From the NCBI RefSeq assembly GCF_001747105.1, contig NZ_MDGQ01000005.1, positions 744,001-808,000 of the forward strand: a stretch of 64,000 nucleotides of DNA, in the 5' to 3' direction. Each line of letters begins with the position of its first letter. The first letter of the stretch is position 1. Made by a program: the position numbers and the translations under genes. Below are positions 28,341-50,621 of this stretch, piece after piece. Origin of the DNA: Roseivirga misakiensis (GTDB taxonomy: Bacteria; Bacteroidota; Bacteroidia; Cytophagales; Cyclobacteriaceae). The notes beneath the pieces are model-generated. The model made no database searches. It was not told where the DNA came from and saw nothing but the letters and a program-made list of their open reading frames with translations.

Positions 28341-28440
28341 AAAACGTGCAAGTAAGGCATAAAATAAGACAGTTACTTTAGTAACTGTCTTATTTTGAGG
28401 TGGGCCCACCTGGGCTTGAACCAGGGACTTTCTGATTGTG
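28341..28440 (-). repeat. tRNA-Met 3'-half plus terminator remnant (copy B), att-like
   Basis: Reading on the minus strand: anticodon-loop edge, T-arm and acceptor 3' strand of tRNA-Met (AAAGTCCCTGGTTCAAGC..., one change in the T-loop), then the same 9-bp terminator hairpin (GACAGTTAC/GTAACTGTC) and a CTTGCACGTTTT block. Similarity to the intact gene stops at the anticodon, so it is a fragment. It is near-identical to copy D at 32984-33077, which brackets a 4.6 kb segment. Confidence 0.75.
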
Positions 28441-28623
28441 AGGGAGACAGAATTTTTCAATTCGAGGGAGCGACATTGACAAGCTTTGATCATTTCAAGA
28501 AAAATTTCTTGAAGTCTATCCGGTCATTTAGAAGACAGCACTTTTGTTGAAGAGGTTGGTTCCAAATAGCCTAGTGCTTATATTATCCAACATAAATATT
28601 AAACTTAACGCGCTATCAAAACC

Positions 28624-32723: not shown

Positions 32724-32835
32724 CTTGCGTGCAAATTAAGTGCAAATAAAAAAGCCACTTCGCGCTTTTAAACGTAAGTGGCTGTCTTTTAAGCTCCTCC
32801 TCTTGGGCTCGAACCAAGGACCCTCTGATTAACAG
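32724..32835 (-). repeat. tRNA-Asn(GTT) 3'-half plus terminator remnant (copy C), att-like
   Basis: On the minus strand, CTGTTAATCAGAGGGTCC, a T-arm (CTTGGTTCGAGCCCAAG) and a GAGGAG acceptor strand match a tRNA-Asn 3' half. The upstream anticodon stem does not pair, so the 5' half is absent. Downstream are a hairpin (AGCCACTT/AAGTGGCT) with a T-run and two TTTGCAC repeats, the same overall plan as the tRNA-Met remnants but with different sequence. Confidence 0.6.
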
Positions 32836-32983
32836 AGAGAGGGTTCTTTTTTGAGATTTATTCCTTTTGGAAATTTAGAGCCTGAACTAATTCTAATGTC
32901 GGCGATATGGTTAATCTATTCGAAGTTGAGAGTGCCTTTTCAAAGTAGTTGACACGATATTTAGAAAGAATAAAAACATGCAG

Positions 32984-33077
32984 AAAACGTGCAAGTAAGG
33001 CATAAAATAAGACAGCTACTTTCGTAACTGTCTTATTTTGAAGTGGGCCCACCTGGGCTCGAACCAGGGACTTTCTG
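32984..33077 (-). repeat. tRNA-Met 3'-half plus terminator remnant (copy D), att-like
   Basis: This is near-identical to copy B across the CTTGCACGTTTT block, the terminator hairpin and the tRNA-Met 3' half (T-loop TTCGAGC intact here). Similarity to the tRNA ends at CAGAAAG on the anticodon stem, and the following sequence is an unrelated small hairpin (CCCCGAAGTTTCGGGG). It sits 68 bp beyond the stop of the Crp-family gene. Confidence 0.75.
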
Positions 33078-33145
33078 CCCCGAAGTTTCGGGGATGAGAT
33101 AGGCAAATAATTTAGTTTTAAGTACTCAGAAGAGAGCTGAATCAT

Positions 33146-33874
33146 TTAAAAGCTAATTTCCCTAAAAAAGTCAGCTTCTTTTGCCAGCTTCTTTTCATCT
33201 AAGATGCCTATTCTTTTGCCTTCGAGCCTGATAAGCCCTTCAGTTCTGAATTCAGAGAGTAATCGTATTAATGTTTCAGTGGCAGTACCAATCAGGTTAG
33301 CAAGCTCTTGCCGTGTTAATGACAAATCAATTATCGTGCATTTCGTTCCTTCCACCCCATAAGTTTGCTTTAATGTGAGCAAAGTTCCTGCAAGTCTTTC
33401 CCTGACAGAATATGCTGAGAATTGGGTCACTTTCTTTTCCATTTGTCCAAGGTGTTTGCAAACCTCGTTTAGCAATTTCTGAAGGAAGCCTGGGTTTGAA
33501 CATATCGCAGAAAGAAAATCTTCTTTTGGAATAAAGGAAATGCAAGCTTCTTCCGTGACCGTGGCGGTTGCGGCATAATACTCTTCGCTTAACAACGCAC
33601 GATAACCTAAAAAGTCATCTTGTTTACTGATATATAAAATCTGTTCTCCTCCTTTCGAACTATTTTGGGAAACTTTTACTTTACCCGAGTGAATACAGAA
33701 CAGCCCCATCGGTCTGGTACCCTGATAAAAGAGAACTTGTCCTTTATTGTAGGTGATTTTCGATTTGTGAGAAGATAAGGTATCAAGTTCTGAATCATTT
33801 AGCTCTGCCAAGAGGCTCAGGTGACCTGAATGAAACACCTGAGGTTGAAAGTCAATAGTTGCTGAAAGGCTCAT
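33146..33874 (-). CDS. Crp/Fnr-family transcription regulator
   Basis: This is a 242-residue protein with an N-terminal cyclic-nucleotide-binding-fold domain (~15-130), a dimerisation helix (~130-155) and a C-terminal Crp-type winged HTH (~160-225; LTRQELANLIGTATETLIRLLSEF). The phosphate-binding cassette of cAMP receptors (GE...RSA) is not conserved: the corresponding stretch is FLGYRALLSEEYYAATA, without the Glu and Arg. FNR iron-sulfur cysteines are also absent, so the signal is unknown and probably not cAMP. It is the last gene of a minus-strand run (serine hydrolase, NmrA-like, this), with a 63-bp gap upstream. Confidence 0.85.
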   Translation of the reverse strand: MSLSATIDFQPQVFHSGHLSLLAELNDSELDTLSSHKSKITYNKGQVLFYQGTRPMGLFCIHSGKVKVSQNSSKGGEQILYISKQDDFLGYRALLSEEYYAATATVTEEACISFIPKEDFLSAICSNPGFLQKLLNEVCKHLGQMEKKVTQFSAYSVRERLAGTLLTLKQTYGVEGTKCTIIDLSLTRQELANLIGTATETLIRLLSEFRTEGLIRLEGKRIGILDEKKLAKEADFFREISF

Positions 33875-33937
33875 TTTAAAATTTTTTTAAAAACTGAAAT
33901 AAAAACCCGTTGTGAGAAAAGTCCTCTGTTCGATCTG

Positions 33938-34801
33938 TTAGTTGAGTTTATCTACTTCTTGCATAAAGAAGCTTTCTAACCGATGTATTCCATGACGTGG
34001 AGCAATATTATTTCTTGCCATCATGGCCAGAAAGAACTCAAAGGGACCATAAGTTTTGGATGATGTGAAAATTTTCAAGCCAGATAGAAAGATGCGTTTG
34101 ACCCAATTGGGTATATGACTGATCTTCAATGGACGTTTCCAGGCTCTTAATGCCAAGGCTGCTATTTCATTCTGCGTGAGAATATCCGGCCCACCTATTT
34201 CAATCTCTTTTTGATCACTTTCAATACTGTCTGCAACAGCTTGGGCTAGGTCAGCACCATGAATTGGATTGAGTTTGAATTCACCATCTCCAAAAAGATA
34301 AACCCTCCCTTTTTTGGCCATTTCGAGAAAGTCCTTCATATCAGAGTAGAAACCATTTGGGCGTATGATGGTGTAGTCTAGGCCCGACAGTGTTAAAGCG
34401 TCTACAAACTTTTCTTTCGCCTCCATAATCTTCAAATGCCGCATTTGGTCCCCACCAATAACCGAAACGTATATGAACTTAGCCACTCCTGCTGCTTTGG
34501 CTTCATGGAGCAGGTTCATATTGGCTTGATAGTCAACGTCCATATAAGTAAGACCGTCTTTCTGACGTGTAATACCAACAGTAGAAATGACCACATCTAT
34601 CTGGTCCATTACCCCATTCAAAGTATTAGGTTTGGTTACTTCAGCTTCAATGATTTGACCCTTTTTCAGGCCTAAATCTTTGAGCTTATTGCTGGTGCGA
34701 GCTATGACCTGGAAGTTTATTCCTTTAAATTGTAGCTCCTTGACAATATGCCTCCCCAAATAGCCGGTTGCCCCGGCTACTAAGATCTTCTCCTTTTTCA
34801 T
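33938..34801 (-). CDS. NmrA-like/atypical SDR NAD(P)-binding oxidoreductase
   Basis: This is a 287-residue Rossmann-fold protein. The N-terminal dinucleotide motif GATGYLG (residues ~10-16) and a following basic residue (ART at ~37-39) suggest NADP(H). The segment YVSVIGGD and the YTIIRPNGFYSDM region fit the SDR-a/NmrA family, which lacks the usual YxxxK catalytic pair. Members are redox sensors, epimerase-like enzymes or quinone reductases, so substrate is unknown. It starts 7 bp after the stop of the serine hydrolase gene (34809-35963), so the two are co-transcribed. Confidence 0.8.
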   Translation of the reverse strand: MKKEKILVAGATGYLGRHIVKELQFKGINFQVIARTSNKLKDLGLKKGQIIEAEVTKPNTLNGVMDQIDVVISTVGITRQKDGLTYMDVDYQANMNLLHEAKAAGVAKFIYVSVIGGDQMRHLKIMEAKEKFVDALTLSGLDYTIIRPNGFYSDMKDFLEMAKKGRVYLFGDGEFKLNPIHGADLAQAVADSIESDQKEIEIGGPDILTQNEIAALALRAWKRPLKISHIPNWVKRIFLSGLKIFTSSKTYGPFEFFLAMMARNNIAPRHGIHRLESFFMQEVDKLN

Positions 34802-34808
34802 TTGTCTG

Positions 34809-35963
34809 CTATTTTGAGTTTGTACTAATTCCTATCAATATTTCAGCAAGGAACATGATGTGCTGTTGCATGTAATCTGTGTTATTAAAGGTGCCACTTA
34901 GGTATATATCCAATTCCGGACAGAAATACATATAGGCTCCCGTACTGCCTGAATGGCCGATTAACGTGAGGGCTGGCCATGAAGGATTCAATTCATTTAA
35001 TACCCACTTTCTAAGCCCATACCCATAGTAAGTGCCTTTGCTTTCTGGTACCCATTGTTGCATTTTTTGAAGACTACTCTCACTGATTAAATTTCCCTGA
35101 AAAATAGCCTTAATAAAGTCGTTCAGGTCTCGACCAGAACTGCGGATGGCACCGCCTGCCCAATCGGCACTGAGGCTCTGGTAACGGCTGATCTCAATGG
35201 GGCCAGCATAGATTTCGGCCAATGGAAAGTCTGGTCTTTTAACAGGCTCCGACCATAGGTTCATACTGGTCAGCTCCATACTCAAAGGATTGATGATGTA
35301 CTTTTCGAAAAACTGATGCAGCGGTATTTTGGTAACTTTTTCAATGATAAGGCCGAGCAACACATATTCGGTATCTGAATAATGGTATCCTAGGCCAGGT
35401 TGGAATCGAGCCTTGAAGTGCTGCCGTGTAAAGTCGATGAGCTCCATAGGTTTCCAAAAATGATCGGGTTCCGTGATTAGCTTCTGCATCATGTTTACAC
35501 CTGAAATGGGTGTGTCTTCGAAGTAATCGGCCATGCCAGAAGTGTGGCTCAGTAAATGATGAATCGTCAACTCCTTGCTATAATCTACACCATCGATGAC
35601 TGACAGGCCCGTAACTACCTTACCCAGATGGTCTGCCACCCGATCTTCAAAAGCCAGTTTCCCTTGATCTACCAAAAGCGTAATGGCTGTAGCCGTAAAG
35701 GTCTTACCGATGCTGGCGGTGTAATAAGGAGTATTTAAGGTGACCTCCTCACCATCGGCAAACTTCCCGACTACCGTATCTATTAAGATCGATTGGTCAG
35801 CTGTTTCTATTCGGAAGAAGGCATTGCGAATGACCTCTTCCTCAGTATAAGTTTTGAAAAGCTGGTGTAATTGTTCCAACCTGTGCTTTTGGTTATTCTC
35901 CTGAGACAAAGCGTTTAACAAGAACCCGGTAATCAGTAGTATGATGAGGAATATCTTTTTCAT
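34809..35963 (-). CDS. secreted serine hydrolase, beta-lactamase family
   Basis: This is a 384-residue protein with a signal peptide (MKKIFLIILL..., cleaved near LSQ). The active-site triads of the class C beta-lactamase fold are S84-I-G-K87, Y195-S-D197 and H337-S-G339. The Tyr-Ser-Asp variant and HSG are common in esterase and DD-peptidase-like members. It lies directly downstream of a second hydrolase gene of the same fold (36038-37117); the two proteins are only distantly alike, so this looks like an old duplication. A stable hairpin with a T-run (35985-36022) separates the two genes, so expression of this one may depend on readthrough. Confidence 0.85.
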   Translation of the reverse strand: MKKIFLIILLITGFLLNALSQENNQKHRLEQLHQLFKTYTEEEVIRNAFFRIETADQSILIDTVVGKFADGEEVTLNTPYYTASIGKTFTATAITLLVDQGKLAFEDRVADHLGKVVTGLSVIDGVDYSKELTIHHLLSHTSGMADYFEDTPISGVNMMQKLITEPDHFWKPMELIDFTRQHFKARFQPGLGYHYSDTEYVLLGLIIEKVTKIPLHQFFEKYIINPLSMELTSMNLWSEPVKRPDFPLAEIYAGPIEISRYQSLSADWAGGAIRSSGRDLNDFIKAIFQGNLISESSLQKMQQWVPESKGTYYGYGLRKWVLNELNPSWPALTLIGHSGSTGAYMYFCPELDIYLSGTFNNTDYMQQHIMFLAEILIGISTNSK

Positions 35964-35984
35964 GAGTTGTTAAGTTTCAGCTTT

Positions 35985-36022
35985 TAAAAAATGCCGGGCC
36001 GTAATTTGGCTTGTGGCCCGGC
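35985..36022 (-). terminator. rho-independent terminator between two hydrolase genes
   Basis: A perfect 8-bp all-GC stem (GCCGGGCC with GGCCCGGC) closes a 14-nt loop and is followed on the minus strand by an A and a run of six T. It begins 15 bp after the stop of the 36038-37117 gene and ends ~20 bp before the next start codon, leaving almost no room for a separate promoter. Confidence 0.75.
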
Positions 36023-36037
36023 TTGATTATGATTGTT

Positions 36038-37117
36038 TTAGAATTCGTTGACTACCAGCGCTTCCAGCACCTCATTGACCGGGCTCCAGTTTTCCACATT
36101 GCTGAGCAGGATAATCATGCTGTTGGTTTCGGGTAGTAGAGCAATTATAGAGGTAAAGCCATCGATGTTGCCCCCATGATTGTAGACTAGGGTGCCGTCT
36201 ATTTTGATAGTGAACCAGCCAAAGCCTGAGGTGAAAAAGTCGTCTTCCGTATAAGGAGCGGCAAAGTAGTCTGCCTTCTCATTCGCTGTTAGGAGTTCAT
36301 TGCCCATCAGTGCATCGCCCCATTTTTCCAGGTCAGCAATGGTACTTTCAAATTCACCGGCACTATTAGCCAGTTCCATCAAGTAAGGTGCTATCAGTTG
36401 GCCATCTTTGTATCCTTTGGCAAAGCCAGCTCCCTGAATGTCATCTGCGCCTTTACCGGTTTGGTTCATACCCAAGGGAGTCATTACATTTTGACCGATG
36501 TAGTCATCGTAGTCCATGTCTGTCAACTCTTCGATAAGAAGGCCCAAAATGAGATAGCCTGAATTGGAGTAGGAGAAGTTGCTTCCAGGTTCGTAGAGTA
36601 AACCATCTTCACCAGCAGATTCTTTAATGATATCGTAGATTTCCTCTGCAGTGAAGAACAAGTTCTGATTTCTGTAAACCTCTTCTATCACGCCTATATA
36701 ATCGGGTAACCCGGAATAATGAGTCATCAAGTGTCTCAATGTGATTTTGTCACCGTGGGGAAATTCATCGTCAAAATCACTTAGTGGCTGGTCAAAGCTT
36801 TCGATCAAGCCATCTCTTTTGAGATTGATAATGCCCATTGTGGTGAAGGCCTTAGTCATGGAACCAATTCTGTAAACCAGCGATGGGTCGTTAGCAATGC
36901 CTGCTCCGGCATCTGCTATGCCAAAGCCTTTTCTCATAAAATCGGTGCCTCCTTTTCTAATCAGAACGCTCCCTTGAAAGCCATGTGTTTCCAGCAAAGC
37001 TTCTGCAGTTGTGTATTCCCCAGAGATATTTGGTGTCGGTGCGTCATCATCATTGCTGCAAGAGCTGATGATCAAGAGAAGAGAGAGTACGATGATTGAG
37101 TGTAATAATGTTTTCAT
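36038..37117 (-). CDS. serine hydrolase lipoprotein, beta-lactamase family
   Basis: This is a 359-residue lipoprotein: signal core then LIISS-C20 and SNDDDAP, the Asp-rich stretch after the lipidated Cys often linked to surface export in Bacteroidota. Catalytic elements are S86-M-T-K89, Y183-S-N185 and H314-G-G316. It resembles D-alanyl-D-alanine carboxypeptidase/esterase-type members; the substrate is unknown. It is preceded by promoter module S1 (37138-37200), shared with two other operons in this block, and followed by a strong terminator. Confidence 0.87.
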   Translation of the reverse strand: MKTLLHSIIVLSLLLIISSCSNDDDAPTPNISGEYTTAEALLETHGFQGSVLIRKGGTDFMRKGFGIADAGAGIANDPSLVYRIGSMTKAFTTMGIINLKRDGLIESFDQPLSDFDDEFPHGDKITLRHLMTHYSGLPDYIGVIEEVYRNQNLFFTAEEIYDIIKESAGEDGLLYEPGSNFSYSNSGYLILGLLIEELTDMDYDDYIGQNVMTPLGMNQTGKGADDIQGAGFAKGYKDGQLIAPYLMELANSAGEFESTIADLEKWGDALMGNELLTANEKADYFAAPYTEDDFFTSGFGWFTIKIDGTLVYNHGGNIDGFTSIIALLPETNSMIILLSNVENWSPVNEVLEALVVNEF

Positions 37118-37137
37118 AGTTTTTGATCTTTAAAAAT

Positions 37138-37200
37138 TGTTTGATGATTCAAAGGTGGGGCATTGGGAAGCCCAGATCGTCCGGGAATCTTTTTCAGGAC
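37138..37200 (-). promoter_or_regulatory. shared 63-bp promoter module, copy S1 (upstream of hydrolase lipoprotein)
   Basis: On the minus strand: GTCCTGAA, 11 nt, GACGAT, 21 nt, CTTTGAATCATCAAACA. It matches S2 (43095-43157) and S3 (44680-44742) with identical spacing. The 3' edge lies 20 bp before the ATG. YTTTG fits the 3' half of the Bacteroidota -7 box, and GACGAT sits where the -33 element would be. An extra AAAAGTCCGG lies just upstream. Confidence 0.7.
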
Positions 37201-37253
37201 TTTTACTATGAAATACCGGACTTTTTTGAAGTCCAAGAAGGGGGGGCTCTTGG

Positions 37254-38354
37254 CTAAGAAGGATGTGCTACACCCAATATGCTTACCTGCTGTTGTTTGC
37301 CTTTAAGTTCCATGCTACCAAGCTCATGGAATTGGAAAGTGGTATAGTCTTCTAATTGAGTATACAAATCTTTGCTTATGAGCAGTTCAGCCTTATATTG
37401 ATTGCAAAGTGACTGGATGCGTGCGGTGGTATTGAGCACATCACCTGTGAAAACAATTTCTGTCTTAAGGGCTCCGACTTCGCCAGTGGTTACTTCACCC
37501 ATGTGCATTCCGGCTTTGAATCCTGGGAATACACCAAATTGTTTTTTAAAAGTCTCGGCTTGTTTCAAAAAATCATTCTGTATATAGAAAAAACATTTGA
37601 CACACCGTGATTTTTCCAAACCCCTTTTTATCGGCCAGGAAATCACTACTTCGTCGCCAATGTATTGGTAGACTTCGCCATATGATTTGATGATAGCATC
37701 AGACATAGTTTGGTAATATTTGCCAAGCAATTCGAAATATTTTACGTGTCCCAGTTTTTCTGCGATCGTAGTCGAGTCGCGCATATCGAGAAACATAAAA
37801 ATGCGCTCTTCTTTTTTTGGTGTGTGATATTTACCCGTGAAGAAATTAATCAATACATTTTGTCCCAAACTATCACTTACGGCAGCATAGAGCAGACTCA
37901 CTACCAGGGAAAAGGAAAGCTGTACCATGGTGCTGATAAAGTTGACACTCACTAGGAAACGACTGAATTTTTCTAAAATACGATCATCCAGAGGACTGGC
38001 TCCTGTTTCGACCGCACCTGCTAATGGGTAAAAAATGAAAATGATGATATGTGCGAATAAAAAATAAAATACAAACTTGAAAATGACCTTTCGACCGAGG
38101 CTGTATTTCTTGAAAAGTCGGTCTAGAAAGAATACCTCCAGTAGCCCTACTCCTAAGCCCACAAAAAAGACAGCGAAGGTTGAAAAAGCTACAATGCGAG
38201 GGGTCAGAGCGATTACTCCAGAATCTTCGGCACCTTTCCAGCCCGCGGCAGCATATTCAACAAATAGAAAAACCCATGACATCAGCAGCCAGATGATGCC
38301 AAAAGGAATGATCTTTTGAATTTTGAATTTTGTTTTCGGAGAAATCCGTTTCAA
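37254..38354 (-). CDS. membrane class III adenylate/guanylate cyclase
   Basis: This is a 366-residue protein with four to five N-terminal membrane helices (~15-35, 53-78, 90-112, 132-158), then a cytoplasmic class III cyclase domain (~184-360). Metal-binding D190 (FLDMRDST) and D234 (YIGDE) and the transition-state N308/R312 (GDVLNTTARI) are present, so the enzyme should be active. As in the fused cyclase at 4372-6972, the purine-selecting Lys is replaced by Gln (Q230), leaving the nucleotide undecided. It lies 47 bp downstream of the AraC/TolB/TPR gene (38402-40153) and is probably its operon partner; the pair reproduces, split, the modules of the 4372 protein. Confidence 0.87.
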   Translation of the reverse strand: MKRISPKTKFKIQKIIPFGIIWLLMSWVFLFVEYAAAGWKGAEDSGVIALTPRIVAFSTFAVFFVGLGVGLLEVFFLDRLFKKYSLGRKVIFKFVFYFLFAHIIIFIFYPLAGAVETGASPLDDRILEKFSRFLVSVNFISTMVQLSFSLVVSLLYAAVSDSLGQNVLINFFTGKYHTPKKEERIFMFLDMRDSTTIAEKLGHVKYFELLGKYYQTMSDAIIKSYGEVYQYIGDEVVISWPIKRGLEKSRCVKCFFYIQNDFLKQAETFKKQFGVFPGFKAGMHMGEVTTGEVGALKTEIVFTGDVLNTTARIQSLCNQYKAELLISKDLYTQLEDYTTFQFHELGSMELKGKQQQVSILGVAHPS

Positions 38355-38401
38355 GTTTACAATTTTAGACTAAGATAAACCGGATTATATAGAAAAGCGG
38401 A

Positions 38402-40153
38402 TTAATTGTTACTCTTTACCCATGCCTTGGGAGTCATGCCAGTTTTTTTCTTGAAAAAGTCGTTAAACACGGACTTGGAATTGAAACCGCTGTCATAGGC
38501 CAAACCTAATAATGTAAGGTGGCTGTTGGCTGGGTCAAGTGCTCGTTCTTGAAAGTCTTTGAGTCGGTATTCGTTGATGTACTCGTTGAATCCTTTACCT
38601 ATTTTCTGATTGATCAACCAAGAGAGCTTATTGGGGTGCAATTCGACTTTCTCAGCTAAGTTCCGAAGCGTCAAATGTGCATCAATGTACACCCGTTCCT
38701 CATACATCAACCGTCTTACAACCTCGGAATAACTAGCCACTTCGCTTTCTGTAAGTACCTCTTCCTCAGTTTTGATATCTGTTTTCTTTGCCTCGCCCAA
38801 AGTCATGGCCAGGAACGGAGCCTCCAGCTTTTTAAAGTCAGTTATCTCCCGCAGTGGTGAAAGCAACGGATCAAACCGAAAGCCCAGAAATTGGCCAGAT
38901 CGATTCTTGACTGAGTCTACTAAGTGATCAAATGCCTCCTGATGCTGACCACTATAAAGCTTTAAATACACCGGTATGCCCAGGTAAAAATCATATGCGT
39001 TGGTGATTTCAAGATCACTTGGTTGTTGTTGATGATAGGCATGCCACAATTGAAATAAGGCTTGCTGTGTTTCCGGTTTGGCTTGTTCTACTGTAACCCG
39101 GAATGCCGATTCTTCACCTAATAGTAACAGACAAAGTGCTTTTAACTCCAAGGCCATCTGCCAGGTATTCAATATCGATAATGCTCCATCCAGCGCCTTA
39201 ATGGCTTCTTGATATTTTGCACTCAAGTAGTAACCAATGGCCTTGGTGTAGTGGTGGTTCAACGCATTGGGGTTGAGTGAAAGGGCCCGGTTAATGTAAG
39301 TTTGTGCTTCTTTAAATGCTCCCAATACATTACAGAGGTCTGCCTGAAACTCTAAAGCCTCCGCATAATTGGCATTTATCTTCAGCGCCTCAGAGAGGTG
39401 AAATTGAGCCTTTTCAAAGTTCCAATTACCAATAAAGGCATAAAGCCCTTTGGTGTAGTGTAAATCTGCAAGGTGGTTAAAGTCGTTACCCAGCTTTTTG
39501 ATGAAATGTTGCGCCATGTAAAGACCTTTCATTCTGTCTACCTGACTCCAGGCTGCATAATGAGCAAAGCTTTGACTTAATCCTAGATAGGGCATCGGGT
39601 ATTTCGGGTCAATCTCAATACTTTCCTTATAAGCCTCTTGTGCTTTTTGAATACTCTCATTGGTCCACTGAAGCTGATAGTATCGCCCTTTTAAATAAGC
39701 CTCATAGGCAGCGGATTCTGTGGTTTTTGGTGTATTGAAATCGTCCTGAATATCGAAGTGACCAAAATGCTCACGAATTTTCTCAGCAATCAACATGCTG
39801 ATTTCATCTTGCAGGTCAAAGATATCAATCAGTTCTCGGTCAAAACTTTCTGACCAAATCTGGAACCCCGTATCGGTTCTAATAAGCTGTGCAGCAATCC
39901 GAATTCTTTTGGATGCTTTTCTAACACTACCTTCTAACAGCGTGCTTACACCCAGTTCGTTGCCAATGTGTCTTGCGTCTACCTGCTTATCTCGATAGCT
40001 AAATGAAGAAGTACGCGAAGTCACTTTCAACCCACTGATCTTACTCAAGGTATTGATGATCTCTTCAGAAATGCCGTCAGCGAAATATTGATTTTCAATA
40101 TCTCCACTGGTATTGTTAAAGGGTAAAACTGCTATCGATTTCTGATTTATCAC
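38402..40153 (-). CDS. TolB-like - TPR - AraC HTH transcription regulator (soluble)
   Basis: This is a 583-residue protein without signal peptide or membrane helix. Residues ~5-115 are a TolB-like/FlgO-type domain (SIAVLPFNNTSGDIENQYFADG...; LLEGSVRK; FDRELIDIFDLQDEIS). TPR repeats span ~135-460, and an AraC-type double HTH closes the protein (~480-580; LRNLAEKVELHPNKLSWLINQ and LAYDSGFNSKSVFNDFFKKKTGMTP). Unlike the 4372 protein, the sensor modules are cytoplasmic. It is divergent from the FIST gene (60-bp shared promoter region) and precedes the cyclase gene. It is a reasonable candidate to control promoter modules S1-S3, but this is not shown by the sequence. Confidence 0.87.
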   Translation of the reverse strand: MINQKSIAVLPFNNTSGDIENQYFADGISEEIINTLSKISGLKVTSRTSSFSYRDKQVDARHIGNELGVSTLLEGSVRKASKRIRIAAQLIRTDTGFQIWSESFDRELIDIFDLQDEISMLIAEKIREHFGHFDIQDDFNTPKTTESAAYEAYLKGRYYQLQWTNESIQKAQEAYKESIEIDPKYPMPYLGLSQSFAHYAAWSQVDRMKGLYMAQHFIKKLGNDFNHLADLHYTKGLYAFIGNWNFEKAQFHLSEALKINANYAEALEFQADLCNVLGAFKEAQTYINRALSLNPNALNHHYTKAIGYYLSAKYQEAIKALDGALSILNTWQMALELKALCLLLLGEESAFRVTVEQAKPETQQALFQLWHAYHQQQPSDLEITNAYDFYLGIPVYLKLYSGQHQEAFDHLVDSVKNRSGQFLGFRFDPLLSPLREITDFKKLEAPFLAMTLGEAKKTDIKTEEEVLTESEVASYSEVVRRLMYEERVYIDAHLTLRNLAEKVELHPNKLSWLINQKIGKGFNEYINEYRLKDFQERALDPANSHLTLLGLAYDSGFNSKSVFNDFFKKKTGMTPKAWVKSNN

Positions 40154-40213
40154 GCTATGACTTTTGAGAGAACAAAGTAGCTTTCTTATTTTTATTCCTT
40201 ACCATTCAAAACC

Positions 40214-41347
40214 ATGATAGTAGACCAGTTTCTTGTGGCGGGAAATCAAATTAGTTACTCTCAGAAAAATATAACAGGCAATGAACAGGTTTCTTTTGTT
40301 TTAGTTTTTACTTCACGAGGTAATCTTGAATCAGCTGACTGGCTACCCGCAGTTGAAGAGGGGTATCCTGGAACAGAAGTGATCAGTTGCTCCACCTCTG
40401 GTGAGGTTTACTTTTCAGAGCTTACACATGAAGCCATCACCGGAATGGCCGTAAGTCTGGAAAAAACCCCTTTTGCCATTCACTCGGCAAAGCTTGCAAA
40501 CAAGGACAAGAGCTTTGCATTGGGTAAAAATCTCGCTGGTAAATTCTCCAAAAACGATTTAAAGCATGTACTGCTTTTTGGCGATGGCTGGCTAGTAAAT
40601 GGTTCTGATCTCGTTCAAGGCATGTACGCTAACCTAAACAAAGATGTAAGTATTAGCGGTGGTCTGGCAGGCGATGGCGCTAACTTTTCTAAAACCTTGG
40701 TAGGTCTCAATGATGACATTGATCAGAGCATGGCTGTAGCCATTGGGTTTTATGGCGATGCCCTCAAAGTGGGCTTTGGGGCTCATGGGGGCTGGAGTGA
40801 ATTGGGTGAGACTTACGAGATCACCAAGACTGAGGGGCGTGAAATTTTAGAACTGGGTGAGCTATCTCCCTTGCCTCTCTACAAACAGTTTTTAGGCGAT
40901 GATGCCGATGGCTTGCCCGGCAGCGCCCTGTTATACCCTGTGGCGGTGTGGCTGCCTGGAGCCGAAGACCATGTGGTACGTACCGTGTTCAATACCGATG
41001 AATTTAATCAGTCGATAACACTGGGGGAGCCCACCCCTGTAGGTGCTAAGTTACAGTTTATGAGGGCCCGTTTTGACGACTTATTAGCAGGGGTAAGAGG
41101 AGCAGCAAATGAAGCATTGAGCAACCTAGGCAAAACACCCGAAATGGCCCTAATGGTGAGCTGCATAGGCCGCAAGCTTTTATTCAACCAACACATAGAC
41201 CAGGAAATTGAGCAAACACGTCAGGTACTTGGAAGTCAGACTCCCATCAGTGGATTCTACAGTTATGGTGAGATTTGCCCGGTAGAGAAGGACCTAGCTG
41301 CCCTTCATCATCAAATGCTTACGCTCACACTTTTTACTGAGGCTTGA
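40214..41347 (+). CDS. FIST-domain signal transduction protein
   Basis: This is a 377-residue soluble protein with FIST N (~30-225) and FIST C (~230-365) domains. Diagnostic stretches are GTEVISCSTSGEVYFSE, ISGGLAGDGANF, GFGAHGGWSELG and the C-terminal SCIGRKLL...ISGFYSYGEICP. FIST domains are thought to sense small ligands, perhaps amino acids, and usually sit beside kinases, cyclases or chemoreceptors. Here the neighbours are the divergent AraC/TolB/TPR regulator and its cyclase, which suggests a common pathway. The 3' end overlaps the convergent quinone oxidoreductase gene by 14 bp. Confidence 0.88.
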   Translation: MIVDQFLVAGNQISYSQKNITGNEQVSFVLVFTSRGNLESADWLPAVEEGYPGTEVISCSTSGEVYFSELTHEAITGMAVSLEKTPFAIHSAKLANKDKSFALGKNLAGKFSKNDLKHVLLFGDGWLVNGSDLVQGMYANLNKDVSISGGLAGDGANFSKTLVGLNDDIDQSMAVAIGFYGDALKVGFGAHGGWSELGETYEITKTEGREILELGELSPLPLYKQFLGDDADGLPGSALLYPVAVWLPGAEDHVVRTVFNTDEFNQSITLGEPTPVGAKLQFMRARFDDLLAGVRGAANEALSNLGKTPEMALMVSCIGRKLLFNQHIDQEIEQTRQVLGSQTPISGFYSYGEICPVEKDLAALHHQMLTLTLFTEA

Positions 41348-42257
41348 GGTTTATCAACACATTACCTCTTTTTCTGCCGGTATCGACATAACGGTGCGCA
41401 GTTACGATTTCCTCGAGCGGATATTCACGGTCAATAAATGGATGAAGCTGCCTAGCATCGACCATTTGGCTAATGGCTTTTAACTTTGCTGTATTCTCTG
41501 AGGTGAACATATTAATAGAAACATAACGGCCTCCGCTATTCAAAACCGACTTTGCCTTGGATTTCGAAGTTTTTCCTACCGCATCAAAAACCACATCATA
41601 CGAGCATTTAACCTTGCTAAAGTCTTCTTTTTTATAATCAATGACTTTTTGTGCTCCCAGCATTTCGACCATTTTTACATTGGCTGTGCTGCATACTCCT
41701 GTTACTTTAGCACCCATCTTTTTGGCCATTTGAACTGCGTAGGTTCCAACACTACCTGAAGCTCCGTAAACCAAAATTTTGTTGGATTTTTGCAACTTGG
41801 CCTTTTCCAGTAGATAGAAAGCCGTCATCGCACCGATGGGTAATGCTGCCGCTTGCTTCAGGTCGATGCTTTCAGGAGCTTTGGCTACTACACTGTTTTT
41901 AGCCTTTTGAGGCACACAGACATATTCGGCATAAGCGCCTTGTTTGAGCAAAGTAGTCGTGCCGAACACCCTATCTCCTGGTTCGAAGTGGCTTACTTCT
42001 TCACCTACAGCCTCAACCACTCCTGAAAATTCATGGCCTAAAACTGGCTTTTTGGGTTTAAAGAGGCCAAAAATCAGACGTGCAGGCAGCCAGAAGAAGG
42101 CGGGGAAATCTGAAGCACGAACACGGGTATCACCAGCCGCCACGGTAGATGCTTCTACCTTTACAAGCAGTTCGTTGGCTTTTGGTTGTGGTTTTTCAAG
42201 CTCTGTGAGCCTCAATACCTTAGGGTCGCCGTATTTTTTATATACTACTGCTCTCAT
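41334..42257 (-). CDS. zinc-free medium-chain dehydrogenase, quinone oxidoreductase type
   Basis: This is a 307-residue MDR-superfamily enzyme. The N-terminal GroES-like domain contains GHEFSGVVEAVG but lacks the structural-zinc cysteines. The Rossmann domain carries GASGSVGTYAVQMAK (~164-178), the NADPH-binding loop of quinone oxidoreductases and enoyl reductases. The likely reaction is NADPH-dependent reduction of quinones or reactive enones; the exact substrate is unknown. It is third in an operon with the lipoprotein (42656-43057) and DUF983 gene (42238-42654), whose end it overlaps by 20 bp. The operon is led by promoter module S2. Confidence 0.87.
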   Translation of the reverse strand: MRAVVYKKYGDPKVLRLTELEKPQPKANELLVKVEASTVAAGDTRVRASDFPAFFWLPARLIFGLFKPKKPVLGHEFSGVVEAVGEEVSHFEPGDRVFGTTTLLKQGAYAEYVCVPQKAKNSVVAKAPESIDLKQAAALPIGAMTAFYLLEKAKLQKSNKILVYGASGSVGTYAVQMAKKMGAKVTGVCSTANVKMVEMLGAQKVIDYKKEDFSKVKCSYDVVFDAVGKTSKSKAKSVLNSGGRYVSINMFTSENTAKLKAISQMVDARQLHPFIDREYPLEEIVTAHRYVDTGRKRGNVLINLKPQ

Positions 42258-42654
42258 TTGTTGTGGATTGATTGGTCAAACTGTCGATTTGCTGCTGGTA
42301 TTTTATCATCAGATGAATCCAAATGCTTCTACTCACGCGATAAACTATGGGTAGTGTCAGGATTACTAATGTAATCATTATACCCATGTATATTTCAAGG
42401 TTTGCATTGGGGTTGATGATACGAATGCCAAAGTAGGTAGCCAGAAAAAGACCTATCTGCAATGCATAACCCACAAACATAGCTCCCATATAAAAGCTAG
42501 GTTCTGGCATAAAGGTCTGATCACATACTTCGCATTTCTCGTTCATGTCTGAGAACCTTTTGAGGTTATATGTCGAGGATCGAAACAGATTGCCTTGCCT
42601 ACATCTAGGACAATGACAACCTGTAACACTTTTGATCAATAATGGCCCACTCAT
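42238..42654 (-). CDS. DUF983 family membrane protein
   Basis: This is a 138-residue protein with two CxxC pairs near the N-terminus (CPRCRQG and CEVCDQ), likely a zinc ribbon, then the DUF983 signature (EPSFYMGAMFVGYALQ) and two membrane helices (~58-77, ~88-108). The function is unknown; homologues occur near cytochrome oxidase or redox genes. The start lies 1 bp after the lipoprotein stop and the end overlaps the oxidoreductase start, so it is firmly within the S2 operon. The Ser/Thr-rich C-terminal tail is dispensable-looking. Confidence 0.85.
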   Translation of the reverse strand: MSGPLLIKSVTGCHCPRCRQGNLFRSSTYNLKRFSDMNEKCEVCDQTFMPEPSFYMGAMFVGYALQIGLFLATYFGIRIINPNANLEIYMGIMITLVILTLPIVYRVSRSIWIHLMIKYQQQIDSLTNQSTTNESSSI

Positions 42655-42655
42655 A

Positions 42656-43057
42656 CTATTGGTATTTTATCAGTTTTACCTTGAATACCTTGACATGATT
42701 GTTCCAACTGGTACCCATGCCAAAGATGTCACCCTTTCCATTTCGGTCACCAAAACCTAGTCCATCTGAGCTGTTTACCAGTTCGCTGTAGCCATCTCCA
42801 AACAGGATGGCATCAGCACCTCGTCTTTTAGCTTCTTCTATCAAAGCTGCCTTGATCTTCTCAGGGTTATTCGCAAACTCCCTGCCCTCATTTTGCATAA
42901 ATCCCATTACCTTATACTCTTTTTCAATGTCTTTTGCATCGAAGAAGAGATCAACTGATTGGGTTGGGGCATGCTGGTTACCGATAAAATTGATTTTAGG
43001 GGAGCAGGCACTGATAATGACTAACAGCACCAGACTCAGTTTCATTGTTGTTTTCAT
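42656..43057 (-). CDS. small lipoprotein of unknown function
   Basis: This is a 133-residue protein with lipoprotein signal (MKTTMKLSLVLLVIISA-C18). The mature part contains KEYKVMGFMQ...KAALIEEAKRRGADAILFGDGYSEL, an alpha/beta pattern like small heavy-metal-binding/YbjQ-type or DUF4156-like domains often seen in lipoproteins, and a Gly-rich loop (~100-118). It is first gene of the operon behind promoter module S2. The family resemblance is weak and the role is unknown. Confidence 0.7.
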   Translation of the reverse strand: MKTTMKLSLVLLVIISACSPKINFIGNQHAPTQSVDLFFDAKDIEKEYKVMGFMQNEGREFANNPEKIKAALIEEAKRRGADAILFGDGYSELVNSSDGLGFGDRNGKGDIFGMGTSWNNHVKVFKVKLIKYQ

Positions 43058-43094
43058 GTTGTTGTTTCTTGAAGTTAATAAATGCCCTTTGGGC

Positions 43095-43157
43095 TGTTTA
43101 ATGATTCAAAGTTTATAAAGTGCCTTTGAGCAATCGTCTGGAATTACCTTTCAGGAC
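43095..43157 (-). promoter_or_regulatory. shared 63-bp promoter module, copy S2 (lipoprotein-DUF983-oxidoreductase operon)
   Basis: On the minus strand: GTCCTGAA, 11 nt, GACGAT, 21 nt, CTTTGAATCATTAAACA. The 17-nt 3' block is identical to S1 except for one base, and the spacing is identical. The 3' edge lies 37 bp before the ATG at 43057. No TTTG/TTG -33 element is apparent at the usual distance, consistent with activator dependence (inference). Confidence 0.7.
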
Positions 43158-43173
43158 TTTTTTGATTAAAGAA

Positions 43174-43776
43174 TTAGGCTACTTTTTGGCCAAGCAGCTC
43201 AATTTTTTTAAGCCACTTTTTACGAAAACCCGGTGCAGAATCTTTAATCGGTGCTATGTAATTGACTTTTACCGGGTCTATACCAACAAATTGTAGGGTA
43301 CCCTTTTTGAATTGCTGTATGGCCGGACTTTTCATAAACCACCGGTCGTACCAGCGCACGGTATCAGCGGTGATCACTATCCTGCCAGTTTTGCCTTTCA
43401 GCAGCTTGTCGGGAAATGACTTACCTTTCTGGTATTTGAAGAATGAGCCCGGTAGAAAAATGCGGTCTACAAAACCTTTCATCAGAGCCGGGTAGCCATA
43501 CCACCACATAGGAAAAAACCACACAATATGATCGGCCGATTTGAACTTTTCGATGGATTCGAGCAGGTCTGGTTCCAGCTCTGAAATTAGCCTGTAGCCG
43601 TATTTCAAATTGGGGTTGAAGTTCAGTTCATGAATCTTGATTTGTTCAAATGAGGCATGTGCTGAATCAAGGCCTTTGATATAGGCCTTAGCCAAAGCCT
43701 CATTGTAGCTTTCTGTATCCGGGTGTCCGTAGATGACCAATACATTCTTATTAGTCGATTGATTTGAGTTTTTCAT
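43174..43776 (-). CDS. NAD(P)H-dependent flavodoxin-fold oxidoreductase (quinone reductase, MdaB/KefF-like)
   Basis: This is a 200-residue Flavodoxin_2-type protein. VIYGHPDTESYNEALAKAY (residues ~14-32) is the FMN/FAD phosphate-binding start, and VWFFPMWWYGYPALMKGFVDRIFLPG (~90-115) is the family signature around the flavin and substrate site. Such enzymes reduce quinones by two electrons or serve as ancillary subunits of K+/H+ antiporters. It follows the YdcZ-like transporter gene by 12 bp in the operon behind S3. Confidence 0.87.
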   Translation of the reverse strand: MKNSNQSTNKNVLVIYGHPDTESYNEALAKAYIKGLDSAHASFEQIKIHELNFNPNLKYGYRLISELEPDLLESIEKFKSADHIVWFFPMWWYGYPALMKGFVDRIFLPGSFFKYQKGKSFPDKLLKGKTGRIVITADTVRWYDRWFMKSPAIQQFKKGTLQFVGIDPVKVNYIAPIKDSAPGFRKKWLKKIELLGQKVA

Positions 43777-43788
43777 AAGTTGAATGTT

Positions 43789-44232
43789 CTACAGTTTTAT
43801 CAGTAAAATACCAGTAATGAGTGCGCCTAGGCCCAACATCTTTTTGACATCGATAGGTTCTACAGGCAAACCGAACCAGCCAAAATGAGCCGCGAGAGTA
43901 GAAAAGATCACCTGACCACAGAGTCCGAATGCCACTGCAGTACCTATGCCCAATTTTGGAATGAGGTAGTAAAACAGTGTGACTGCCAGAAAACTGAAAA
44001 AGGCTCCGGTAAACCAGAGATAGGTAGGTACCACATTTAAATGCAGCGTAGGGAACCCTTTTGAGGTAACCAACACCGCAATAAAAGTGAATACTGCTCC
44101 GAAAAATAGCGTAGAAAGGGCAGCCAGCAACGGGCTTTGAAGTAGTGAACCAAGACGGGAATTGAGCCCGCCCTGAAGCACCACCATAAAGCCAGTAAGC
44201 ACTGCTAGTGACATCAGAATCAGCGTATTCAT
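43789..44232 (-). CDS. YdcZ/DUF606-type DMT-superfamily transporter
   Basis: This is a 147-residue inner-membrane protein from the ATG at 44232 (an earlier ATG at 44322 would add 30 non-hydrophobic residues and overlap the SnoaL gene by 71 bp, so it is rejected). There are five membrane helices. FMVVLQGGLNSRLGSLLQSP in helix 1-loop and GQVIFSTLAAHFGWFG match the DUF606 (YdcZ) family of small drug/metabolite exporters. It starts 19 bp after the SnoaL stop and lies between a SnoaL-like and a quinone-reductase gene in the S3 operon, which suggests export linked to detoxification (inference). Confidence 0.85.
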   Translation of the reverse strand: MNTLILMSLAVLTGFMVVLQGGLNSRLGSLLQSPLLAALSTLFFGAVFTFIAVLVTSKGFPTLHLNVVPTYLWFTGAFFSFLAVTLFYYLIPKLGIGTAVAFGLCGQVIFSTLAAHFGWFGLPVEPIDVKKMLGLGALITGILLIKL

Positions 44233-44251
44233 AATCTTGCGATTTTGAGGC

Positions 44252-44662
44252 TTAATGGGCAGCGATTTCATAAGCAGCTGAGTCTTCGTAAAAACGATAT
44301 TCCAATATTTTGCCATCGGCAATCACGCAGCGCTGTACCCAGTCGCTTTCAAACATGTTGCCTTTGGCTTTGACCTTATGGACAAAGCTGCCATGCGCAT
44401 ACACCACATTCTCTTCTGCTTCCATGAGAGACTTCACCTCAAAGCTCTGCGTATCGAAAAGGCTAACGATATTACCTAAAAAGGTTTCGGCTTCTTCCAG
44501 CCCCTGATAACTACCATGTAGCTGGCCATTCACTCTGCTTGCTTCACGGACACTTACGATTTTACAGTTAGGGTGAAAGTGGGACCTAACAGCCACCATA
44601 TCGCCCCGGCCAAATGCCTCAAAATAGCTGGCCAATACCTGTTTGTTGTTTGAATTTTTCAT
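44252..44662 (-). CDS. SnoaL/NTF2-like protein
   Basis: This is a 136-residue protein with the cone-shaped NTF2/SnoaL-like pattern: N-terminal helix (QVLASYFEAFGRGD), FHPNCKIVS strand, GLEEAETFLGNI helix, and strands NVVYAHGSFVHKVKAKG and DWVQRCVIADGKILEYRFYED. The family includes ketosteroid isomerase-like enzymes, polyketide cyclases and small-molecule binding proteins; catalytic residues cannot be assigned. It is first gene of the S3 operon, with the ATG 17 bp after the promoter module. Confidence 0.82.
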   Translation of the reverse strand: MKNSNNKQVLASYFEAFGRGDMVAVRSHFHPNCKIVSVREASRVNGQLHGSYQGLEEAETFLGNIVSLFDTQSFEVKSLMEAEENVVYAHGSFVHKVKAKGNMFESDWVQRCVIADGKILEYRFYEDSAAYEIAAH

Positions 44663-44679
44663 TTGCTTTCTGTTTTCGT

Positions 44680-44742
44680 ATTTAATGAAAACAAAAGTGG
44701 GCTCAGAGGATTGACCAATCGTCCGAATATGTTATTCAGGAG
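44680..44742 (-). promoter_or_regulatory. shared 63-bp promoter module, copy S3 (SnoaL-DMT-quinone reductase operon)
   Basis: On the minus strand: CTCCTGAA, 11 nt, GACGAT, 21 nt, TTTTGTTTTCATTAAATA. The 5' elements and the spacing are identical to S1 and S2, and the -7-like block is the most divergent of the three. The TCCTGAA...TTCGGA portion forms a dyad, which would suit a dimeric regulator. Confidence 0.68.
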
Positions 44743-44910
44743 TTGTTAATAGGGAAGTGGTGAGATTTAGGACTAAAGAGAACGGATCAGAAGAAGATTT
44801 GAGTAGTACAATGACCTTAATTTTTGATGATAAGTGCTGATGTCAACCTGTCAAGATCGGGGATCCTTAATAATTGATTTAAGTATCATATAGGCTGTTT
44901 TTGATTGGAA

Positions 44911-45023
44911 AAAGCACGCGAAAAGCACGCGATTAAGACATAAAAAAAGACAGTCACTTTCGTAACTGTCTGATTTTGAAGTGGGCCCACCTGGGCTCGA
45001 ACCAGGGACTTTCTGATTATGAG
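44911..45023 (-). repeat. tRNA-Met 3'-half plus terminator remnant (copy E), att-like
   Basis: On the minus strand: CTCATAATCAGAAAGTCCC, intact T-arm and acceptor 3' strand of tRNA-Met, a terminator hairpin (GACAGTTAC/GTGACTGTC), then two GCGTGCTTTT repeats. It is the copy closest to the intact locus at 48591-48747, sharing the GCACGCGAAAAGCACGC block. Similarity ends at the anticodon loop. Confidence 0.75.
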
Positions 45024-48663: not shown

Positions 48664-48673
48664 GATTGTCAAG

Positions 48674-48747
48674 TGGGCCCACCTGGGCTCGAACCAGGGA
48701 CTTTCTGATTATGAGTCAGATACTCTAACCAACTGAGTTATAGGCCC
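48674..48747 (-). tRNA. tRNA-Met (anticodon CAT), intact
   Basis: The 74-nt sequence folds completely: acceptor GGGCCTA/TGGGCCC (one G-T pair), D-stem ACTC/GAGT, anticodon stem TCTGA/TCAGA around loop CTCATAA, T-stem CCTGG/CCAGG with TTCGAGC, discriminator A. CCA is not encoded. The anticodon CAT fits elongator Met or lysidine-modified Ile; the acceptor favours neither by eye, and Met is the default. The weak D-stem (ACTC rather than GCTC) is unusual. It is the apparent source of the remnants at B, D and E. Confidence 0.88.
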
Positions 48748-48820: not shown

Positions 48821-48889
48821 AAAAGCATTTTATACCCTTGAAAATTGGACTGCAATGTTACATATTTGTTGTTAATTAAACAACATGAA

Positions 48890-49516
48890 ATGCCCCTAGA
48901 TCTTTCTGAAGTAGACAACATTATTTTCGATTTAGGAGGCGTTATCCTCAATATTGATCATGATGCCCCAATTCGGGCTTTTAAGCAGTTGGGTATCCCT
49001 AATTTTCAGGCACTTTATTCTAAAGCCACCCAAAGTTCTTTGTTTACCGACCTAGAAACTGGTGCTATTAGTCCTTCAGAGTTTCGCGATGGGCTGAGGT
49101 CCTTTTTGCCTATTCCTCTAAATGATCATAAACTTGATGAGGCTTGGAACTCGATTATTCTCGACTTTCCTGTGAAGAATATTAGGCTGCTGGAAAAACT
49201 AAAGTCTGAGAAACGAATATTCTTATTGAGTAATACCAATACTATTCACTTGGCAGTTTTTACAGAGAGGCTCAAACAACATTTCGGTTATAATGCACTG
49301 GATGAACTGCTTGAGAAAACTTACTATTCGCATGAGGTTGGAATGCGGAAACCGAATAAAGACATTTTCCAGTATGTGATTAAGGATTCAGGTGTTATTC
49401 CCGACAGAACCCTTTTTATAGATGATACGATAGATCATGTAATAACTGCTAAAAGTTGCCACTTGCATACACATCACCTCAAGGATAATGAAAGCATAAT
49501 CGAGCTTTTTAATTAA
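48890..49516 (+). CDS. HAD-family phosphatase (YihX-like)
   Basis: This is a 208-residue HAD hydrolase from the ATG at 48890 (a TTG 45 bp upstream is unlikely). Motif I is FDLGGVILNIDHD with nucleophile D14; motif II is LLSNTN; motif III/IV are K...GMRKPNKDIF and FIDDTIDH. The cap is of the helical C1 type, as in YihX/epoxide hydrolase-like members. The substrate is a small phosphorylated metabolite. It is 4 bp upstream of mtnA, so a role in methylthioribose metabolism is plausible, although the MtnX/MtnC families are different. Confidence 0.88.
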   Translation: MPLDLSEVDNIIFDLGGVILNIDHDAPIRAFKQLGIPNFQALYSKATQSSLFTDLETGAISPSEFRDGLRSFLPIPLNDHKLDEAWNSIILDFPVKNIRLLEKLKSEKRIFLLSNTNTIHLAVFTERLKQHFGYNALDELLEKTYYSHEVGMRKPNKDIFQYVIKDSGVIPDRTLFIDDTIDHVITAKSCHLHTHHLKDNESIIELFN

Positions 49517-49520
49517 GAAA

Positions 49521-50621
49521 ATGAAAATAGAAGGTAAACACTATCACACCATATGGTTAAAGGATAATAATCCAGAGGTGATCGAGGTGATCGATCAGCG
49601 CTTGTTACCACACCAAATGGAAGTATATGAAGTAAATTCAGTAGATGAAGCGGCTAAGGCCATTTCTGATATGGTGGTTCGCGGTGCTCCATTAATTGGT
49701 GTGACGGCTGCGTACGGACTTTATTTGGCGTGTCTAAAAAATCCTTCGAACGACCATCTTATCAAAGCTGCCAATACTTTGAAAGCATCTCGACCGACAG
49801 CCGTGAATTTGGCTTGGGCGGTAGATTTGATGATGAAAGAACTAATGGACTTTTCGGAAAACGAGCGTGTTCAAAAGGCCTTGACTATGGCTGATAAAAT
49901 CAAAGCTGATGATATTGAGGTTTGTCGGAACATTGGGGTACATGGCCTAAATATCATTCGAAATTTATATCAAAAGCACCAAAGAACAATCAATATTCTC
50001 ACGCACTGCAATGCTGGCTGGTTAGCAACAATTGATTGGGGAACTGCCACTTCTCCAATTTATCAGGCCATAGCGGAGGGAATCCCAATTCATGTTTGGG
50101 TAGACGAAACGCGTCCAAGAAACCAAGGAGCAAACCTCACTGCTTATGAACTTTTACAGCAAGAGGTACCACATACGCTTGTCGTGGATAATACAGGTGG
50201 ACACTTAATGCAGCATGGAATGGTGGATATGGTGATTGTCGGTACGGATAGAACCACCGCTCAGGGAGATGTTGCAAACAAAATTGGAACCTATCTTAAA
50301 GCACTAGCCGCAAAAGATAATAATATACCTTTTTATGTAGCACTACCTTCGTCAACGATCGATTGGGATTTAAATGATGGATTAAAGGAAATCCCCATAG
50401 AGCAAAGGAGTGGAGAAGAGGTAACGTCTATCTGGGGTTGGACGGGTGAAAAAATGCAAAAGGTACAATTAAGCCCTACTGGCACTCCTGCGGCCAATTA
50501 TGGTTTTGATGTGACACCAGCAAGATTAGTGACAGGCTTGATTACGGAGCGAGGCATTTGTTCGGCAAGTAGTGAAGGTTTGTTGACTTTATTTCCAGAA
50601 AAAGCACCTTCCAATGGATGA
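49521..50621 (+). CDS. mtnA: S-methyl-5-thioribose-1-phosphate isomerase
   Basis: This is a 366-residue eIF2B-like isomerase that converts methylthioribose-1-phosphate to methylthioribulose-1-phosphate in the salvage of methylthioadenosine. The family-specific catalytic residues are visible: C163 in THCNAGWLAT and D243 in GTDRTTAQGDVANKIGTY. The substrate-binding RGAPLIG (54-60) and RPTAVNLAWA (91-100) are also present. It lies between the HAD phosphatase (4 bp upstream) and a class II aldolase gene (8-bp overlap), forming a compact operon. No mtnC, mtnD or mtnK is in the window. Confidence 0.93.
   Translation: MKIEGKHYHTIWLKDNNPEVIEVIDQRLLPHQMEVYEVNSVDEAAKAISDMVVRGAPLIGVTAAYGLYLACLKNPSNDHLIKAANTLKASRPTAVNLAWAVDLMMKELMDFSENERVQKALTMADKIKADDIEVCRNIGVHGLNIIRNLYQKHQRTINILTHCNAGWLATIDWGTATSPIYQAIAEGIPIHVWVDETRPRNQGANLTAYELLQQEVPHTLVVDNTGGHLMQHGMVDMVIVGTDRTTAQGDVANKIGTYLKALAAKDNNIPFYVALPSSTIDWDLNDGLKEIPIEQRSGEEVTSIWGWTGEKMQKVQLSPTGTPAANYGFDVTPARLVTGLITERGICSASSEGLLTLFPEKAPSNG

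Follow-up and report, generated by a model that had tools for sequence, protein, structure and literature searches.

A compound promoter element shared by three operons of Roseivirga misakiensis and its link to a proposed CadC-like/AraC-domain regulator

Activators of the AraC type use direct half-sites two helical turns apart, the nearer of which abuts the -33 region of the promoter. A third turn between the half-sites has been reported to be tolerated by AraC, and a site that ends at the -33 region is in a common position for an activator. To our knowledge, few pairs of AraC-type regulator and operator have been worked out in Bacteroidota. Here we describe a promoter element in a 64,000-nucleotide stretch of the Roseivirga misakiensis genome (NCBI RefSeq assembly GCF_001747105.1, contig NZ_MDGQ01000005.1, positions 744,001 to 808,000; the whole stretch is called the window below). 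Three copies of it head three operons close to a gene (38402-40153) for a predicted soluble protein with a CadC-like sensor and an AraC-type domain. Computation established that the element exists, that it is unique to this place in its own genome, that it is conserved and that it is linked to this regulator. Very probably the three copies are the operators of one local regulon that this protein switches on; DNA binding, the sign of control, the inducer and the biological role are what we infer from these results. No description of a regulator or operator of this kind was found in titles and abstract openings of the open-licence literature.

Read on the minus strand, the core of the element is TCCTGAA-N11-GACGAT-N21-YTTTG, and the spacing of these three boxes is the same in all three copies (37150-37199, 43107-43156 and 44692-44741 by pattern search; Table 1). 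The first-pass annotation of this DNA had proposed a 63-base-pair (bp) module with every interval identical, placed 17-37 bp before the ATG. The shared element proved real and its three boxes equally spaced, but the claim of identical intervals fails at the last box, where two bases precede TCATYAAA in copies 1 and 2 and three bases precede TCATTAAA in copy 3. The parts that had been named sum to 60 bp, and the distances to the ATG are 22 bases for copy 1 (in front of serine hydrolase A), 39 for copy 2 and 18 for copy 3. The proposed unit was also too short, as in copies 1 and 3 conservation extends upstream and takes in a distal half-site.

Searches of the own genome (4,449,419 bases, 5 contigs) revealed three exact matches to the core, all inside the window, and none to the reversed pattern. 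With up to three mismatches, 12 further places appeared, each with exactly three, and the reversed pattern gave 9 over the whole genome. A sequence-only model built from relatives scored the three copies at expect values (E) of 8.8e-8, 2.7e-6 and 4.9e-5 genome-wide, with the next place at 0.116. When a matrix made from relatives only was run on the window, copies 1, 3 and 2 ranked in this order (scores in Table 1) and nothing else reached 10 bits. Additional regulon members in the own genome were found neither by the mismatch-tolerant pattern search nor by the model.

A search of a 59-genome subset found full-length regulator relatives at 76, 60, 44 and 42% identity and lower, and several loci around such relatives carry the element with 1 to 4 mismatches. 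Among 24 newly added loci (L095-L118), a few of which repeat places already counted, 19 had a match at up to four mismatches (23 matches in total; reversed pattern 3). A matrix was seeded with 50 sites of at most three mismatches from 28 of 54 loci, the window excluded (reversed pattern 2). At a threshold of 18 bits it detected 76 sites in the 1,010,558 bases of the 54 loci, or about 45 after down-weighting of similar sites, whereas the reversed matrix detected none. Such a site was present in 41 of the 54 loci. In 47 comparison loci (274,549 bases) 5 matches reached 15 bits. All are in L022, L051 and L052, loci that encode full-length regulator relatives of their own (L022 and L051 overlap); L055 and L056 do so too, yet have no match. 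The comparison loci are therefore not a clean negative set.

Co-occurrence of element and regulator was analysed with the model, which was built from 39 sites, none from the window, and applied to the window's family at a cut-off of E <=0.001; the regulator was counted as present where a homologue matched at E up to 1e-60. Of 295 family genomes, 65 carry the regulator, 40 the element and 36 both (Fisher p = 6e-24, relatedness uncorrected), and the four element genomes lacking the regulator have weak matches only (1.1e-4 to 8.9e-4). The 40 genomes contain 101 matches, 82 of them within 10 kilobases (kb) of a regulator gene and 78 within 5 kb; of the matches in regulator-bearing genomes, 15 are over 10 kb away from the regulator gene or on a different contig. 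The window's own pattern with at most one mismatch, which is free of training bias, was found in 19 of the 295 genomes, 15 of which have the regulator (p 6e-8). In a sample of 296 genomes from the phylum, the regulator is present in 25 and the element (E <=1e-4) in 11, all within those 25. These 11 include the window's own genome (G000), one genome used in training (G121) and one that shares a site with a training locus (G441, locus L062); the remaining eight, all outside the window's family, had not been used for the model. Co-occurrence, together with adjacency in other genomes, strongly supports the AraC/TolB/TPR protein as the regulator of a shared regulon, one of two candidates named in the first-pass annotation.

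When 40 relatives' sites were aligned together with the DNA upstream of them, a second conserved stretch became visible. The DNA upstream of 41 non-redundant sites was searched with GTCCNNNATNTCAY at up to two mismatches. Of the 28 matches, 26 stood 19-22 or 30-31 bp from the proximal GTCC, while the reversed pattern gave 2 and the other strand 0. This distal half-site stands at 20-21 bp in 20 of the 41 sites and at 30-31 bp in 4. In the eight genomes new to the model it is found at 20-21 bp, with at most one mismatch, in 7 of 11 sites, a tally that leaves out L180 as the repeat of a training contig. Tandem half-sites that share a face of the DNA beside the core promoter, a trait of AraC/XylS regulators, are accordingly seen at 24 of 41 sites and at 7 of 11 in the new genomes.

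An inverted repeat (TCCTGAA...TTCnGGA) had also been noted. It is weak in the window, with 6, 5 and 4 of 10 pairs in copies 1, 2 and 3, but its axis is clear over the 40 sites of relatives, where mean complementarity about the point between positions 10 and 11 is 0.565 versus at most 0.364 on ten other axes. Covariation is confined to pair 2-19 (31 of 40 versus 25.5 in shuffles, p 0.01), the other nine pairs showing none. The palindrome was considered as the chief organising feature and demoted to a secondary one, since only one of ten pairs covaries and the direct repeat is clearer. Such a dyad of 20 bp could be read by the Crp-family protein encoded at the low-coordinate end of the locus, the other candidate regulator, in response to cyclic AMP from the cyclase whose gene adjoins that of the AraC-type protein. 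The axis and its covarying pair favour a Crp-type dimer, and the Crp gene shares the block described below. Crp homologues, however, are present in 50 of the 59 genomes searched (own included), among them G001, G002, G010 and G016, in which the element was not found, and none matched in the 23 loci compared. The nine pairs that do not covary also speak against Crp, which would leave the distal direct repeat and the adjacency of the AraC gene unexplained. Crp was rejected as the regulator for lack of co-occurrence, and we consider it very unlikely that it reads the element.

The -7 box of the element in relatives is CAnYTTTG (weighted sites: first base C 0.75, T 0.15) and differs in this from the housekeeping box TAnnTTTG, the -7 consensus of Bacteroides according to PMC7366714, which also states that no -33 motif was found in Flavobacterium johnsoniae. 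That the promoter depends on an activator, as had been suggested earlier, is a fair reading, since the first base of the box is mostly C where this consensus has T. The AraC-type protein might instead bind the element and repress, or merely modulate, the three operons, which we regard as unlikely. Sites near the core promoter are compatible with either sign of control, but the proximal site ends at the -33 region, where activators are commonly positioned, and the non-consensus first base of the -7 box is kept across relatives, as in a promoter that needs help.

The proposed regulator that would provide this help carries an AraC-type DNA-binding domain with two helix-turn-helix motifs (PF12833, E 5.8e-14; PF00165, E 7.7e-7; both above cutoffs), and its structure model, made from 50 aligned relatives and reaching a mean predicted local distance difference test score (pLDDT) of 90.5, has seven helices at residues 469-582. 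The top four PDB matches of the model are all the CadC periplasmic domain (3ly8, 3ly9, 3ly7, 3lya; E 1.7e-7 to 4.4e-7), with template-modelling (TM) scores of 0.65-0.69 by target length. Residues 5-361 match a HilA/EilA model at 46 bits, far under the cutoff of 589. Pfam gave no match to an N-terminal winged-helix domain, and the structure model starts with an alpha/beta part, which we take to be TolB-like, a name that no Pfam match backs. Inspection of the sequence by eye revealed no long hydrophobic stretch or membrane anchor. The sensor is thus predicted to be of the CadC type and the DNA-binding domain, at the opposite end, of the AraC type.

The gene for a class III cyclase starts 47 bases downstream of the regulator gene, and in two other genomes (L090 and L049) a cyclase homologue belongs to a run of genes headed by the element. 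Elsewhere in the window, an 866-amino-acid (aa) protein at 4372-6972 unites TPR repeats, an AraC-type domain and a class III cyclase domain in a single polypeptide, a hint that AraC regulator and cyclase are functionally linked. A TPR/AraC-type protein of 586 aa is encoded at 7065-8825; the matrix scan of the window found no element near it.

The genes behind the sites were compared as 77 downstream proteins, including the three of the window; they were picked automatically, and 2 of the 76 sites yielded no target. They form 11 clusters and 6 singletons (blastp E 1e-5), namely a 216-aa type (17 members), a 186-aa type (10), serine hydrolases (9), Vat-like acetyltransferases (9), a 71-aa type (6), the 133-aa lipoprotein, TonB-type and SnoaL clusters (4 each) and three smaller ones. 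All three window targets fall in clusters that carry the element in other genomes too. An NmrA-type gene directly follows the element in L044, and inspection by eye shows the same in L177, L179 and L183; the Vat-like acetyltransferase is element-headed in nine loci. The one member of the latter cluster that was scanned (L048:13137-13763) is near the Vat (streptogramin A) family, at 287 bits versus a cutoff of 300. Proteins of the two commonest clusters appear by eye to be exported and have no Pfam match in the members scanned; Pfam likewise gave none for the 186-, 215- and 71-aa types, three targets that recur. The 'detoxification' flavour first ascribed to the regulon is no more than plausible. 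Serine hydrolases, SnoaL, quinone/NAD(P)H reductases and the relatives' Vat-like acetyltransferase fit it, but the two commonest clusters are the unmatched, exported-looking proteins just named.

The targets vary between genomes while the site persists, and the same site before different genes argues for function over ancestry. The likeness of the copies could be left over from duplicated or transferred promoters that no specific regulator reads, and a block that moved as a unit could by shared transfer produce the co-occurrence of regulator and promoter. We give this hardly any credence: the boxes stay among the relatives' sites while the 21-bp spacer drifts, the genes behind them differ, and the matches that lie far from the regulator gene or on a separate contig are not accounted for.

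Several observations weigh against an operator read by the AraC-type protein. The model was trained on sites mostly beside the regulator, and the p-values ignore phylogeny. By eye, the pattern matches in two of the 15 regulator-bearing genomes (G007, G171) and in the four genomes without regulator look like chance. No model match was found, under stricter filters, in 29 of the 65 regulator-bearing family genomes, and 13 of the 54 loci lack a site that reaches 18 bits. A distal half-site at 20-21 bp is present at about half of the sites (20 of 41, plus 4 at 30-31 bp); for copy 2, an upstream search with GTCCNNNATNTCAY found no clear one. The short dyad also fits the core and could be read by a symmetric dimer of another kind. 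Similarity of the sites follows that of the DNA-binding domains in a Mantel test (r 0.38, p 2e-4, 43 regulators), but the Spearman correlation is weak (0.11), and despite the positive Mantel test we do not claim co-evolution of domain and site as proof.

The block from 33146 to 44773, where the distal half-site of copy 3 ends, is bracketed by two tRNA-Met 3'-end remnants (Table 1). Altogether, four truncated tRNA-Met 3'-end copies, 79-92% alike, and the intact gene are spread across 39 kb, and these scattered copies suggest repeated insertion at this tRNA-Met gene. A different tRNA-like remnant (32773-32827; 71% to the tRNA-Met remnant) lies beside the low-coordinate edge. Four relatives keep the neighbours of tRNA-Met on one side (48845-51210), and the DNA beyond the other side differs; the stretches compared there held no regulon gene, and what matched did so weakly, for example a LytTR kinase/regulator pair (L201, L202). 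The whole package looks to be in a stretch of acquired appearance. No integrase was found among the 28 window proteins scanned, so the cassette stays putative. Outside the block, 12663-25382 encodes a protein of 4239 aa that has NHL repeats and a Por secretion tail besides 13 matches to cadherin domains.

Table 1. Features of the element, its proposed regulator and their surroundings (window coordinates)
Feature	Position	Strand	Basis or remark
Further tRNA-Met remnants	28358-28442; 9607-9677		89%; 79%, weaker
tRNA-Met 3'-end remnant and following hairpin, low-coordinate edge	32972..33085	.	
Crp-family protein in block	33146..33874	-	Pfam; not supported as regulator
NmrA/NAD(P)-binding protein, last of copy 1 unit	33938..34801	-	Pfam
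Second serine hydrolase, probably co-transcribed	34809..35963	-	PF00144
Serine hydrolase lipoprotein (serine hydrolase A), target of copy 1	36038..37117	-	PF00144; one of nine element-headed targets in cluster
Copy 1 element, TCCTGAA-N11-GACGAT-N21-CTTTG-N2-TCATCAAA	37140..37199	-	pattern match; 48.6 bits, relatives-only matrix
-7-like box of copy 1, CACCTTTG	37150..37157	-	consensus CAnYTTTG in relatives
Distal half-site of copy 1, GTCCGGTATTTCAT	37208..37221	-	exact match to GTCCNNNATNTCAY; 21 bp upstream of proximal GTCC
Class III nucleotidyl cyclase, membrane part by eye	37254..38354	-	PF00211
Proposed 583-aa regulator with CadC-like sensor (alpha/beta part, TolB-like, and TPR) and C-terminal AraC-type DNA-binding domain	38402..40153	-	Pfam, co-occurrence, structure model
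FIST-domain protein, divergent from regulator	40214..41347	+	Pfam; adjacency kept in L043, L044
Quinone oxidoreductase	41334..42257	-	PF08240, PF00107; TIGR02824 175 bits, under cutoff 297
DUF983 protein	42238..42654	-	PF06170
133-aa lipoprotein, first gene of copy 2 unit	42656..43057	-	no Pfam match; cluster in 4 loci including window
Copy 2 element	43097..43156	-	pattern match; 32.7 bits, relatives-only matrix; heads 133-aa lipoprotein/DUF983/quinone oxidoreductase unit
-7-like box of copy 2, AAACTTTG	43107-43114	-	
Flavodoxin-fold NAD(P)H reductase	43174..43776	-	PF02525
YdcZ membrane protein	43789..44322	-	PF04657
SnoaL-like protein, first gene of copy 3 unit	44252..44662	-	PF12680
Copy 3 element, N3 before TCATTAAA	44681..44741	-	pattern match; 36.0 bits; heads SnoaL/YdcZ/flavodoxin-fold genes
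-7-like box of copy 3, CACTTTTG	44692-44699	-	
Distal half-site of copy 3, GTCCTAAATCTCAC	44760..44773	-	exact match to GTCCNNNATNTCAY; 31 bp upstream of proximal box
tRNA-Met 3'-end remnant and following hairpin, high-coordinate edge	44910..45023	.	
Intact tRNA-Met gene	48673-48747		

As a mechanism, the predicted soluble CadC-type sensor (TolB-like part and TPR), joined to its C-terminal AraC DNA-binding domain, would bind GTCC-type half-sites, probably as a dimer or higher oligomer. The proximal half-site, joined to GGACGAT, would adjoin the promoter, and the distal direct repeat would at many sites lie two or three helical turns upstream. The bound protein may then help RNA polymerase at promoters whose CAnYTTTG -7 box departs from TAnnTTTG, and would switch on serine hydrolases, quinone/NAD(P)H enzymes, a SnoaL protein and small membrane proteins, the trigger probably being a noxious signal. 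On a wider scale we tentatively propose, with more doubt than conviction, a widespread undescribed Bacteroidota class of soluble CadC-type sensor/AraC fusions. These would run small self-contained regulons that move as cassettes, here in a tRNA-Met array, and gain targets through one compound operator with two or three turns between its half-sites, with the cyclase as a second-messenger branch. If the regulons do move in this way, a regulon would be transferred along with its own regulator.

Sequence alone has thus yielded the operator and many targets of a regulator family, together with a spacing rule, across several families of the phylum. Target proteins without a Pfam family can be approached through the operator, and the two half-site spacings that occur in nature lend themselves to testing how flexible such activators are.

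Among known systems, the hybrid two-component regulators of Bacteroides likewise have an AraC-type output domain, and one solved hybrid two-component chain is weakly similar (12aw, E 0.0018); in contrast to them, this protein has no kinase or receiver domain by Pfam. With regulators of the CadC/HilA type it shares the sensor, as the structure model best matches the CadC periplasmic domain and residues 5-361 match the HilA/EilA model, though far under its cutoff. It differs from them in having no matched N-terminal winged helix, no membrane span visible by eye and an AraC-type domain at the C-terminus. AraC/XylS activators (AraC, RhaS, MelR) have the same double helix-turn-helix domain (PF12833, PF00165) and, as a property of that family, tandem half-sites about two turns apart by the core promoter. 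The present system differs from these activators in its sensor, predicted to be of the CadC type in place of an AraC-type ligand domain, in natural sites with two or three turns between the half-sites, and in acting at a Bacteroidota promoter.

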